Source: Erythrobacter sp. JK5 (GTDB lineage Bacteria; Pseudomonadota; Alphaproteobacteria; Sphingomonadales; Sphingomonadaceae). From it: a DNA stretch of 64,000 nt. The DNA is taken from contig NZ_CP073577.1 of NCBI RefSeq assembly GCF_018205975.1, positions 496,001 to 560,000 on the forward strand. Reading direction: 5' to 3'. A program made the position numbers and the translations under genes. Every line of letters begins with the position of its first letter. Position 1 is the first letter of the stretch. This document shows positions 19,890-22,540 of the stretch, one piece after another. Under the pieces are notes generated by a model that saw only the letters and a list, made by a program, of their open reading frames with translations, made no database searches and was not told the DNA's origin.

Positions 19890-20285
19890 CTAGCTCTCCT
19901 CCAGCAGCAACAGCACCGCCGTCACCACCATCCGCTCGTCCGCGCCGAAGCGGTGATCGACTTCGCGCACGGTGGCGTCGGCGACCAGTTGGCCGGGGAT
20001 GCGGAACTCGTGTTCGGCCAGGTTGGCGATGAAGTCCTCCCCGACCTCGACCGCGTCGCGCCCGTCGAAATCGAGCATCACTTCGTGACGGGTGCCGGAG
20101 AAGGTGATCGAGGACCACGCCTTCTCCTCATGGCTGAGCAGGCTCGCGCGTCCCTCTGCCAGCATCAGCAGCGCCTCGCGCACCCGGTCGGCGGTGGTGC
20201 GCCGGGGGCGGTAGCGCCGGCCGCGCGGGGCGGGCGAGGGGACGGGTTCGGCGGATTTGGTCTCGATGAGCGTTTCGGTCAGCAC
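19890..20285 (-). CDS. Conserved hypothetical protein, second gene of SOS-box unit
   Basis: A 131-residue protein I do not recognise. The first 30 residues are basic and Pro-rich (PSPAPRGRRYRPRRTTADR). A helix follows (VREALLMLAEGRASLLSHEEKAWSS), then a beta-rich C-terminal half (ITFSGTRHEVMLDFDGRDAVEVGEDF...VADATVREVDHRF). No signal or membrane segment is seen. It starts with GTG at 20285 inside the last codons of the 67-residue gene (7-base overlap), so it is translationally coupled to it and should share its promoter and SOS-like box. Function unknown. Confidence 0.65.
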   Translation of the reverse strand: MLTETLIETKSAEPVPSPAPRGRRYRPRRTTADRVREALLMLAEGRASLLSHEEKAWSSITFSGTRHEVMLDFDGRDAVEVGEDFIANLAEHEFRIPGQLVADATVREVDHRFGADERMVVTAVLLLLEES

Positions 20286-20482
20286 GGTTGCGCTACTCCC
20301 TTGGTCTGCGTGTTGGCGAAGTCGCGCATGAAGGCGCGGGTGCGTTGCTCGGTGGCGGGCCTGGGCACGCGGCCCATGCGCAGGTCCAGCACGAAGCGCG
20401 GATCGTGCGCGGCCAGCCGCCCGAACTTGGTCGCGGCCATGTCGTGCTCGCGCATGAATTTTTCGACGTCGCGGATCAGCAT
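20279..20482 (-). CDS. Small HTH-like protein behind an SOS-type box
   Basis: A 67-residue protein starting MLIRDVEKFMREHDMAATKF with AGGGAG a few bases upstream. The stretch AATKFGRLAAHDPRFVLDLRMGR has the spacing of a Cro/CI-type helix-turn-helix: a helix, a turn at AAHDP, then a recognition-like helix with basic residues. It is therefore likely a small DNA-binding protein. It is transcribed divergently from the S24 repressor at 22541 and shared a 110-base intergenic region with it before the transposon inserted. A GTTC-N7-GTTC box lies 46-60 bases upstream of its start. Regulation by DNA damage is inferred. Confidence 0.65.
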   Translation of the reverse strand: MLIRDVEKFMREHDMAATKFGRLAAHDPRFVLDLRMGRVPRPATEQRTRAFMRDFANTQTKGVAQPC

Positions 20483-20527: not shown

Positions 20528-20542
20528 GTTCACTAAACGTTC
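20528..20542. promoter_or_regulatory. Alphaproteobacterial LexA (SOS) box
   Basis: GTTC-actaaac-GTTC matches the alphaproteobacterial LexA consensus GTTC-N7-GTTC exactly (GAAC-N7-GAAC on the minus strand). It is centred about 53 bases upstream of the ATG of the 67-residue gene at 20482, where an operator would overlap the promoter. It lies just outside the left end of the transposon. LexA binding is inferred from the motif and its position. Confidence 0.6.
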
Positions 20543-20548
20543 CACGCG

Positions 20549-20556
20549 AAATCCTA
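20549..20556. repeat. Target site duplication, left copy
   Basis: AAATCCTA directly abuts the left inverted repeat of the IS1595-type element and is repeated exactly at 22497-22504. Eight bases is the target duplication length expected of this family. Confidence 0.8.
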
Positions 20557-20578
20557 CCGAGCTATCCCCTTGCCATAC
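20557..20578. repeat. Left terminal inverted repeat of the IS1595-type element
   Basis: It begins CCGAGCTATCCCCT and matches the reverse complement of 22475-22496 at 17 of 22 positions by eye. The first five bases are identical. Confidence 0.75.
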
Positions 20579-20605
20579 GTAATAATCTGTGGCATATAAT
20601 GGGGC

Positions 20606-21484
20606 ATGAAAACGAAACCTCAGACCATTGCTCAATTCTTCAAGCGCTTCCCGAATGACGAGGCTTGCTTGCAGCATCTTTTCGATGTTCGGTTTGGACA
20701 GGGGCACGAGTGCCCGAAGTGTAAGCGGGCCTCTAAGTGGTTCCGCATCAAGGCTGAGCGTGCGTTCTCGTGCCAATGGTGCGGCCACCACCTGCATCCG
20801 ACCGTTGGCACTCCTTTTGAGAAGTCCCGCACGTCGCTTCAGCTTTGGTTCTATGCAATCTTTCTGTTCACCACCACGCGCAACGGTGTGGCCGCTAAGG
20901 AACTCCAGAGACAGCTAGGAGTGACCTATAAGACCGCATGGCGCATGGCTGATCTAATCCGCAAGCACATGGCCGATGTTGACGGTGACAAGCCAATTGG
21001 CGGCGCTGGCACCATCGTAGAGGCTGACGAGACTTACATCGGGGGCGAAGCGCGGGGCAAAGGCTCCGGCTACAAGAAAAACAAGACAATCGTATTCGGT
21101 ATGCTTGAGCGCGGCGGCGATGTTGTCACCGAGGTTGTCCCCAATCGCGGGATCAACGCGCTGGTTCCGACCATGCTCAAGCATGTTGACCGCAACACGG
21201 AAGTCCACACTGACGAACTCGGTTCGTATGGCTACCTCTCGCTTGAAGGCTACGATCACAAGCGCATCAACCATAGCAAGGGCGAATACGTCGATGCAAA
21301 CGGTGTAGGCGTGAACTCAATTGAGGGCTTTTGGGCGCAGTTGAAACGCTCGATCTCCGGCACTCACATTCACGTGAGCGGCAAGCACCTCTGGAAATAC
21401 GCTAAGGAAGCGGAATACCGCTTTAATCGTCGTCACCGTCCTGAGGTGATGTTTGACGAGTTGGTTGAGACTTTCCAGCCATAG
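20606..21484 (+). CDS. IS1595 family (ISXO2-like) transposase
   Basis: A 292-residue transposase. The N-terminal zinc ribbon uses C36, C39, C56 and C59 (HECPKCK and FSCQWCG), followed by an HTH region (KELQRQLGVTYKTAWRMADLI). The ISXO2-like DDE domain has EADETYIGG (Asp near 141), VHTDELGSYGYL and GVNSIEGFWAQLKRS. The length is full for the family and no frameshift is seen. A TATAAT lies at 20595-20600, almost against the start codon, with GGGG just before the ATG. Its last 62 bases overlap an antisense passenger gene. Confidence 0.93.
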   Translation: MKTKPQTIAQFFKRFPNDEACLQHLFDVRFGQGHECPKCKRASKWFRIKAERAFSCQWCGHHLHPTVGTPFEKSRTSLQLWFYAIFLFTTTRNGVAAKELQRQLGVTYKTAWRMADLIRKHMADVDGDKPIGGAGTIVEADETYIGGEARGKGSGYKKNKTIVFGMLERGGDVVTEVVPNRGINALVPTMLKHVDRNTEVHTDELGSYGYLSLEGYDHKRINHSKGEYVDANGVGVNSIEGFWAQLKRSISGTHIHVSGKHLWKYAKEAEYRFNRRHRPEVMFDELVETFQP

Positions 21485-21587
21485 CCTCAACGGTTCGATT
21501 GAAGGCTTCCATATCGCCTTTCACCTCAGGGTGTTCGGCGATGAACTCACTCAGCTTGTTCTGCCGGATCGCTTCTTTGAGATTCAT
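21423..21587 (-). CDS. Passenger gene 3: 54-residue protein antisense to the transposase end
   Basis: A short gene starting ATG at 21587 with GAGGATATG just upstream. The product begins MNLKEAIRQNKLSEFIAEHP and has a very acidic tail ending GDDD. It is helical and charged, with no membrane segment. Its start lies 41 bases inside the end of passenger gene 2, in another frame, and its last 62 bases overlap the transposase coding end on the opposite strand. The overlap and the ribosome site favour a real coupled gene. No function recognised. Confidence 0.55.
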   Translation of the reverse strand: MNLKEAIRQNKLSEFIAEHPEVKGDMEAFNRTVEAMAGKSQPTRQTSPQDGDDD

Positions 21588-22113
21588 TTGCCATATCCTC
21601 TAAAGCATCAAGGACGCGATCAAGGCGCTGGTCTTGCGCGGCATCCTTCTCTGCTTGCTCAACAGCTGTTTCAGTGACTTGGCCCTCTATCGCAGCCCCG
21701 GCCCCAAAGGCATCACTCCACAACGCCACGATAGCAATAATCGCAGTGATTATGGTGGCAACTGCCCCTGCGATATAGTTCCTGAATGTTTCCTTCGTCG
21801 GCATTTTCCCTTCAGCCGTTTCAAGGCTGGTCGTCAACTTGTCGATGCTGCCACTAATCTCACTGTTCGCAACCTTGCGGTCAGCCTCAGCCTCCCTGAA
21901 TGCGGCCAGCACGTCGCGCACCTCCGCTTTAAGGTCAGCGTTTATTACATCGACCTTCGCCTCTACGCTTGTCATGCGGTTTTCCAGTTGGCGGAAACGG
22001 TTTTCGTTTCTGTTGTCGGTGCCGCCCTGGAACTGTCGATAGTCCGGCCCACCTTTAGGCTGCGGGAAGCCGCCGAAAGTAATTTCGTAGTTCGAGGAGC
22101 CATCGTTTTGCAT
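21547..22113 (-). CDS. Passenger gene 2: coiled-coil membrane protein
   Basis: A 188-residue protein I do not recognise. Residues 1-40 are polar and Gly-rich. A long amphipathic coiled coil follows (RFRQLENRMTSVEAKVDVIN through DKLTTSLETAEG), then a single hydrophobic segment near 118-138 (YIAGAVATIITAIIAIVALW), and a charged C-terminal helix (EQAEKDAAQDQRLDRVLDAL). This layout suggests a membrane-anchored oligomer resembling small phage or plasmid coiled-coil proteins. I chose ATG 22113, 14 bases after the stop of passenger gene 1; an earlier in-frame start at 22149 would overlap it. Function unknown. Confidence 0.65.
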   Translation of the reverse strand: MQNDGSSNYEITFGGFPQPKGGPDYRQFQGGTDNRNENRFRQLENRMTSVEAKVDVINADLKAEVRDVLAAFREAEADRKVANSEISGSIDKLTTSLETAEGKMPTKETFRNYIAGAVATIITAIIAIVALWSDAFGAGAAIEGQVTETAVEQAEKDAAQDQRLDRVLDALEDMANESQRSDPAEQAE

Positions 22114-22126
22114 GGATCGCTCGCTA

Positions 22127-22408
22127 TTATTCCGTTTGACCCGCTGCACTCACAAGCCATTCGCCCAGCGCTTTGACTTGGTTCTTTGGCATCGCAATTG
22201 TCGCCACGGTCTTTCGGACAAGCTGGCCGTCCTCGATCACAAACTCCAAGAGCGAAAATTTGGCGGTGTGGCTGCCAATCATGAGATTTCCGGCTGCATC
22301 CATATAGACCGTTGGCGCATTCGCATCCGCCTTTGAGGCGGGCAAGTCGCCAGTTTCGCCTTCCTGTGAGACGAACTGTGGCTTGGCGCTGTGATCTGTG
22401 TCCGACAT
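22127..22408 (-). CDS. Passenger gene 1: 93-residue soluble protein
   Basis: Starts ATG 22408 with a strong AGGAGG site 4 bases upstream. The N-terminal 35 residues are polar. A beta-rich core follows (PTVYMDAAGNLMIGSHTAKFSLLEFVIEDG) and then TIAMPKNQVKALGEWLV. The last motif faintly resembles the end of DUF3467-type proteins, but I would not assign it. It is the first gene of the minus-strand passenger array, so a promoter should lie between 22409 and the right inverted repeat. Function unknown. Confidence 0.65.
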   Translation of the reverse strand: MSDTDHSAKPQFVSQEGETGDLPASKADANAPTVYMDAAGNLMIGSHTAKFSLLEFVIEDGQLVRKTVATIAMPKNQVKALGEWLVSAAGQTE

Positions 22409-22474
22409 GAACCCTCCTGATTCGATCACCGGGTTCTAGCTTAGCCTCTGACATTCCAACAATTCCTTTTCTAC

Positions 22475-22496
22475 CTATGCTGAGGGGATACCTCGG
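22475..22496. repeat. Right terminal inverted repeat of the IS1595-type element
   Basis: Reads CTATGCTGAGGGGATACCTCGG; its reverse complement begins CCGAGGTATCCCCT and pairs with the left end. It is followed immediately by the second copy of the 8-bp target duplication. Confidence 0.75.
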
Positions 22497-22504
22497 AAAT
22501 CCTA
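22497..22504. repeat. Target site duplication, right copy
   Basis: AAATCCTA, identical to 20549-20556 and directly adjacent to the right inverted repeat. It also provides the left half of the dyad at 22500-22515. Confidence 0.8.
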
Positions 22505-22515
22505 CTTGTCTAGGA
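22500..22515. promoter_or_regulatory. Candidate operator of the S24 repressor
   Basis: A perfect dyad, TCCTA-cttgtc-TAGGA, 25 bases upstream of the repressor start codon; a further TAGGA half-site lies at 22529-22533. Two 5-base half-sites with a 6-base spacer is a plausible repressor operator. The left half-site is part of the target duplication, so the transposon insertion kept it intact on this side. Confidence 0.45.
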
Positions 22516-22540
22516 AATTTCTTTCATGTAGGAAGGAAAT

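Follow-up and report, generated by a model that had tools for sequence, protein, structure and literature searches.

Insertion sequences (ISs) of the IS1595 family usually make an 8-bp target-site duplication and have a single transposase gene, as far as the available text of PMC8101967 describes them. Passenger genes are known in ISs, and the IS1595 family has passenger-bearing members (Siguier 2009, as cited in PMC3129680). TnGBS, ISLre2 and ISKra4-group Mutator-like elements are described, in the available portion of PMC3942029, as inserting upstream of vegetative promoters, 15-17 bp from the -35 element. Integron-like elements use the UV-tolerance gene rulB as a hotspot and have a variable cargo side, according to the available portion of PMC4542609. 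Here we describe a 1,940-bp transposon of Erythrobacter sp. JK5, which occupies positions 20557-22496 of a 64,000-nucleotide stretch of contig NZ_CP073577.1 (the window), together with a clade of cargo-carrying relatives that recur at promoters of DNA-damage genes and at one position before a gene for a regulator with a Peptidase_S24 (LexA-like) domain (the S24 gene).

The window element shares with the IS1595 family its transposase domains, its 8-bp duplication and its single transposase gene. Its clade differs from the family by cargo in all 31 elements of our first set, by a conserved small open reading frame (ORF) antisense to the transposase gene, by duplications of 8 or 9 bp, and by recurrent targets at promoters of the SOS regulon or the S24 gene. 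As in passenger-bearing (transporter) ISs, genes unrelated to transposition lie between the ends. Insertion upstream of promoters is the feature in common with TnGBS-like elements, but the clade abuts the putative -35 element or sits 4 bp from a LexA box instead of 15-17 bp upstream, favours SOS genes, and uses an IS1595 transposase, not a Mutator-like (p-MULT) one. The rulB elements are alike in their variable cargo side and in having a hotspot, there a UV-tolerance gene, whereas the account available describes site-specific recombinases, insertion inside rulB and a 3-bp repeat. Few bacterial DDE transposases are, to our knowledge, known to choose promoters, and we found none tied to the SOS regulon in the open-licence literature.

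The window element is a mobile, cargo-bearing transposon of the IS1595 family (Table 1). A sequence-only reading of the window had proposed a complete IS1595-family element with 22-bp imperfect inverted repeats at these coordinates, and the transposase domains, the matched ends and the exact duplication bear this out. The transposase frame is open, and its product matches PF12762 (134.8 bits), PF12760 (42.2 bits) and NF033547 of NCBIfam (196.8 bits, cut-off 75); the strong domain matches in Pfam and NCBIfam are to IS1595 domains only, a DDE_Tnp_IS1595 domain with an N-terminal zinc ribbon. The left end reads CCGAGCTATCCCCTTGCCATAC and the right end, in reverse complement, CCGAGGTATCCCCTCAGCATAG; the two agree at 17 of 22 positions, or at 80% over 25 bp when extended. 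Identical copies of the octamer AAATCCTA flank the element directly. The two flanks share ten bases (GAAATCCTAC), within which the reading had correctly placed an 8-bp duplication: the insertions of relatives at this locus are consistent with 8 bp (AAATCCTA, ATTTCCTA), which rules out a 10-bp one. The host's 3.34-Mb genome holds one DNA copy of the element; a protein search gave two transposase matches in this genome, with only this element's among the matches listed.

Table 1. Features of the transposon and its insertion site, in window coordinates (aa, amino acids)
Feature	Position	Strand	Basis or remark
Divergent small gene, 67 aa (MLIRDVEKFMREHDM...)	20279..20482	-	starts 45-106 bp from operator in empty sites
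Exact LexA-box match GTTCACTAAACGTTC	20528..20542	+	6 bp from duplication, on the divergent-gene side
Target-site duplication AAATCCTA, left copy	20549..20556	.	direct sequence reading; relatives with empty site
Left terminal inverted repeat	20557..20581	+	clade-wide core TATCCCC
IS1595-family transposase, 292 aa, zinc ribbon and DDE domain	20606..21484	+	domain profiles
Small ORF, 54 aa; conserved element gene, not cargo	21423..21587	-	antisense over transposase 3' end
Cargo gene 1, 188 aa (200 aa from upstream GTG)	21547..22113	-	mostly helical, with hydrophobic stretch
Cargo gene 2, 93 aa (100 aa from upstream GTG)	22127..22408	-	weak similarity to same-place proteins of two relatives
Right terminal inverted repeat	22472..22496	-	
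Target-site duplication AAATCCTA, right copy	22497..22504	.	doubles as left arm of operator-like motif
Operator-like motif AAATCCTACTTGTCTAGGAAA, upstream of S24 gene	22497..22517	+	motif match; intact on gene side
Putative sigma-70 promoter of S24 gene: TTGTCT (22506-22511), 17 bp, TAGGAA (22529-22534)	22506..22534	+	consensus match only
Target gene, regulator with Peptidase_S24 (LexA-like) domain, 223 aa	22541..23212	+	PF00717, 66.2 bits

An empty site in related genomes, which the proposal had implied, is present in relatives of the same genus. The joined flanks align as one piece, with small gaps, to six of them (L111, L114, L115, L116, L118 and L119; 68-72% over 1.3-1.4 kb). The alignment to the closest relative, L117, has two pieces, one of which crosses the junction; the unoccupied sequence there is TTCACTAAACGTTCCATGCGAAATCCTACTTGTCTAGGAAA. 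On its right side the element adjoins AAATCCTACTTGTCTAGGAAA, and the insertion point is thus the putative operator/promoter of the S24 repressor gene; here, as throughout, promoters, operators and boxes are sequence matches. This 21-bp motif occurs with up to three mismatches in 291 of 397 genomes of the family, mostly once in each, and the intergenic DNA around it has diverged. It is a very conserved operator-like site before the S24 gene. The product of the divergent gene on the other side has no match in Pfam or NCBIfam.

The same S24 position is occupied in 12 genomes, with the transposase gene reading with the S24 gene in six and against it in six. The occupants are the window element, L062 (also L110), L085 (L106), L153 (L104), L160 (L103), L158, L231, L102, L105, L107, L108 (from Erythrobacter fulvus) and L109, with one junction only seen for L102 and L105. 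L062 and L085, which come from other genera and have other ends and other cargo, duplicate the same octamer, AAATCCTA. L231 has another sequence in place of the AAATCCTA arm, and its insertion position is unchanged. Scanning a collection of 84,980 species for an element end beside the motif returned nine genomes, L062 and L085 again among them, and all nine have an adjacent IS1595 transposase. A single inherited insertion is ruled out by the opposite orientations and the differing ends and cargo, and also by L231, whose transposase is 94% identical to that of the window and which lies inverted with another duplication. Promoter capture for the cargo is ruled out by the six-to-six orientation, and AAATCCTA as a general target motif by the different sequences of the other sites. 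We also read 50 other S24 loci, 30 returned automatically and 20 picked by us. The gap between operator and divergent gene is 45-106 bp in 48 of these and unmeasurable in two, where the divergent gene was not found; no IS1595 transposase was present at any of the 20 that were searched for one. Since the gap is ordinary in 48 of 50 and no transposase turned up in the 20, the S24 site does not, in this sample, collect elements of every kind.

Relatives of the element were collected by transposase similarity. Among 397 family genomes, 163 gave some match, and 39 regions were fetched, with seven partial or contig-end matches left out (G226, G175:C23, G018:C100, G136, G067:C48, G067:C6 and G221). 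A terminal-repeat core TATCCC, after six variable bases, and an exact 8-bp duplication bound 30 of the 39, which with the window element make up the first set of 31; four more have a 9-bp duplication, and five were without resolved ends (L069, L072, L093, L095 and L100). A second set from the order comprised 16 regions, ten with 8 bp, two with 9 bp (six 9-bp relatives in all) and four without resolved ends (L155, L157, L161 and L163). The operator scan added L107-L109. For replication, three further genera (114, 60 and 201 genomes) were searched with the transposase of L159, an element at a recA site, which gave 14 regions and ten newly resolved elements (L226 and L232 were without resolved ends; L225 and L238 duplicate L108 and L233). 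The total is 60 resolved elements, and L101 repeats L062. The clade ends read NNNNNNTATCCCC, and the inverted repeats are common to other copies of such transposases, as the sequence-only reading would have it. The first-set elements are 1.6-3.5 kb long, and all have ORFs between the transposase gene and the right end. Their outer six repeat bases differ among elements and agree within each (the two ends match at 162 of 186 positions, and at 89 after shuffling). In L063 (GGACAT) and L080 (CGACAT) these outer bases match half-sites of a palindromic target, so that each junction restores the target palindrome nearly or completely.

We take GTTCN7GTTC to be the alphaproteobacterial LexA box, a consensus for which we found no paper in the open-licence literature; it precedes lexA, recA, radA and mmcB in these genomes. 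Flank comparison revealed a shared site at the lexA promoter in L064, L065 and L077, and clade members also lie at the promoters of recA (three elements), radA and mmcB. Family searches identified LexA at L065 (161.7 bits), RecA at L159 (374 bits) and MmcB at L088 (117.5 bits). RadA at L078 scored 268 bits for a cut sequence, below the cut-off of 403; lexA at L064 and L077 was assigned by flank similarity, and recA at L228 and L229 by likeness of sequence. An exact box lies within 80 bp of 11 of 44 elements, against 0.45 expected, and within 60 bp of 16 of the 60. Counting only the 56 elements not chosen by site, which omits the window element and the three from the operator scan, the figure is 15 against about 0.6 expected from a background of 15 boxes in 277,055 bp of flank; the host genome has 95 exact boxes in 3.34 Mb. 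The Poisson probability is about 1e-16 against flank density, and 2e-7 if, conservatively, each kb is taken to have one promoter, all background boxes to lie in promoters and all insertions to fall in them. By comparison, a box lies at one of 22 resolved elements in a sister IS1595 clade of the same family, a control drawn from 40 hand-picked matches of lower identity, 18 of which were without resolved ends. These sister elements (L171-L205) mostly end in NNNNNNTATATAC, and the resolved ones are 2-3 kb, long enough for cargo.

Positions relative to the box recur as well. Duplication and box are separated by exactly 4 bp, with a single orientation, at radA, mmcB, recA (L228 and L229) and the L236 site, and by 26 bp at all three lexA insertions; at the S24 locus the gap is 6 bp in the other orientation (window, L153, L160 and L231). 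The remaining gaps are -4 (L159, at recA), 13 (L237), 15 (L154) and 23 bp (L092). A constant distance to the LexA box suits radA, mmcB, the two recA insertions and L236, and a constant distance to the -35 element suits lexA and S24 better; neither rule covers all sites.

Target class follows the lineage of the transposase. On a transposase tree of 62 rows it needs 15 changes, against 27.0 when shuffled, and none of 200 shuffles was as low. A clade of 14 (support 98/93) includes 11 members that did not come from the operator scan, and nine of these, at five loci, are at S24 or LexA-box sites, the two exceptions being L080 (at the operon of an XRE-family regulator) and L227; in a nested clade of ten (98/89) the count is nine of nine. 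Both clades were picked after the tree was seen. S24 and lexA sites recur in the other large transposase subclade, and well-supported branches require the SOS label to change at least eight times, whether by gain or by loss. Five of the ten newly resolved replication elements have a LexA box, two of them at recA, one at the S24 locus and two elsewhere; the ten were picked by transposase similarity and not by site, with a query from a clade rich in such sites.

Several observations weigh against a preference for SOS and S24 promoters. Because 38 of the 56 elements not chosen by site have neither the S24 site nor a LexA box, any such targeting is a preference and not a rule. Several elements apparently lie inside long ORFs, three (L063, L080 and L074) share a site at the XRE-regulator operon, and six (L066, L081, L082, L150, L156 and L087) have their 9-bp duplication central in palindromes resembling repetitive extragenic palindromic (REP) sequences, CCTGAAACAAGTTCAGG-like in five and of another kind in L087. 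G656, the genome of L231, has two element copies, and only one of these near-identical copies is at the S24 locus. L062, L085 and L158 are at the S24 site without an exact LexA box, so LexA itself cannot explain that site. When each locus is counted once, the conservative test gives P 0.0013, and the contrast with the sister clade is modest taken alone (Fisher P 0.023). A prediction made beforehand, that the closest relatives of SOS-site transposases would lie at SOS promoters, was borne out by L228 and contradicted by L227, and was unscorable for L226.

Upstream promoter edges might be targeted generally, as by TnGBS, with SOS promoters over-represented since transposition would occur under DNA damage, at a time of high SOS-promoter activity; we regard this as a serious possibility, if on balance a doubtful one. 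With the score threshold at its strictest (6.7), a promoter-like pair with its -35 element beginning at -3 to +1 of the duplication edge is present at 6 of 30 distinct loci; the control windows, two of which overlap the test window, reach 5 at most, with a median of 1. At looser scores, however, the same window is unremarkable (7 against up to 8, and 12 against up to 13). We set the scoring weights ourselves and chose the test window after the sites had been seen, and beyond the hotspots the offset shows up only weakly (z about 3 at one offset). The sites at the XRE operon and at a GntR-like regulator (L071) fit general promoter targeting, as does L231, which hits the S24 site though the AAATCCTA arm is replaced, so that it is the -35 side that stays constant. 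In contrast, at recA (L228 and L229) the likely -35 element, judged by eye, is well inside the flank, and the LexA-box distance therefore fits better; nor is any ribosomal or tRNA gene promoter prominent, by eye, among the flanking genes shown, which were not systematically identified.

That the transposase recognises nothing but the sequence or shape of the DNA, with SOS and S24 operators and REP-like palindromes happening to fit a taste for AT-rich 8-9-mers that are often short palindromes, seems to us unlikely. The duplications are indeed AT-rich and symmetric (A/T 0.89 at positions 2 and 7 in 28 elements), the HS2 and S24 targets are palindromic, and the six REP-like sites are of this kind; yet the duplications at lexA, recA, radA, mmcB and S24 have no common motif by eye, while the type of regulator is common to them. 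Near-random insertion followed by selection for harmless copies that leave the operator whole would account for the intact gene-side promoters at S24 and lexA. We judge it highly improbable, since harmless positions would be far too numerous for 12 genomes to share one by survival alone, and the ordinary gaps at 48 of the 50 other S24 loci and the lack of a transposase at the 20 searched also count against it.

By these counts, lineages of this clade lie far above expectation at promoters of DNA-damage genes and at one S24 position, in either orientation. In the best joint explanation, which we consider likely, the DDE transposase would carry out a staggered strand transfer of 8-9 bp at the edge of a repressor-controlled promoter, and the site would be chosen through something that these promoters share, either a bound repressor of the LexA family or activity during DNA damage. 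The window insertion would be tolerated because the duplicated AAATCCTA keeps the S24 operator and putative promoter whole on the gene side. The transposase, the ends and the small ORF would then be the conserved machinery and the remainder its load, and the cargo may give the host a benefit related to defence or to the membrane. A more specific version, which we put forward tentatively and rather doubt, is that the transposase, perhaps with a small antisense-encoded partner, docks on operator-bound repressors of the LexA family (LexA, S24) and so delivers defence-like cargo beside DNA-damage promoters, with lineages specialised within the regulon.

The sequence-only reading had counted three unrecognised passenger genes. 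Two of these stand (188 and 93 aa), and the third, the 54-aa ORF, is a conserved gene of the element. A profile started from the portion of this ORF outside the transposase gene found it in 36 of 60 elements. Of 27 elements that were further ones or weak matches, 23 have a form with an FDRLLxAM-like motif, and three of these 23 are also among the 36; in total, 56 of 60 elements have the small ORF antisense to the transposase 3' end. The two passengers are as unfamiliar as had been claimed. Pfam has nothing for either. A search of about 5.8 billion proteins, which reaches only relatives sharing short exact words, gave two other relatives for the 188-aa protein and none for the 93-aa protein. 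The 188-aa protein is probably a membrane-anchored coiled coil, with the anchor judged by eye and a low-confidence structure prediction of three helices (pLDDT 51.5). Of the two relatives' proteins that weakly resemble the 93-aa protein, one is weakly DUF3467-like.

The nearest relative, L231, is 84% identical to the window element over bases 1-989 and 73% identical in the final 98 bp, with no DNA similarity in the cargo region between. Its cargo has the same layout, with a 107-aa protein (weakly DUF3467-like, 16.5 bits, cut-off 25) and a 172-aa protein that has a hydrophobic stretch and coiled-coil-like matches; the layout in L065 is similar to that of the window. The L231 lineage moved recently, because the two copies in G656 differ by one mismatch and have different duplications. 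Judged from this comparison of sequences, the two window cargo genes are swappable, with unrelated cargo between transposases that are 94% identical, and the clade as a whole evidently keeps the transposase, the terminal repeats and the antisense small ORF while its middle is swapped for unrelated genes.

Several relatives appear to carry defence-like cargo. PADLOC was run on 18 cargo proteins, two of them from the window; cargo ORFs were called by length only, with at least one wrong choice (L065, since amended). The window 188-aa protein gave a weak match to PDC-S04 through its coiled coil (16.8 bits, E 0.001), and the 93-aa protein gave none. CapP was found in L063 (88 bits), and pAgo-type models in L089 (172 bits), whose protein has an SLFN_AlbA_2 domain; L078 had a weak match, and in all eight of the 18 had none. 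The candidate phage-defence model PDC-S42 matched proteins of 244-320 aa in L062, L068, L071, L073, L075 and L076 (25.8-41 bits), with L068, L071 and L073 picked partly for their likeness to L062.

IS1595 elements are thus real carriers of cargo, with genes that are swapped even where the transposases are nearly identical. If the preference for DNA-damage promoters is true, the clade would be a natural, repeated experiment on the evolution of target choice by a transposase and may offer a case of tethering to a host repressor in bacteria, and candidate defence genes could be found by collecting the DNA between these ends.

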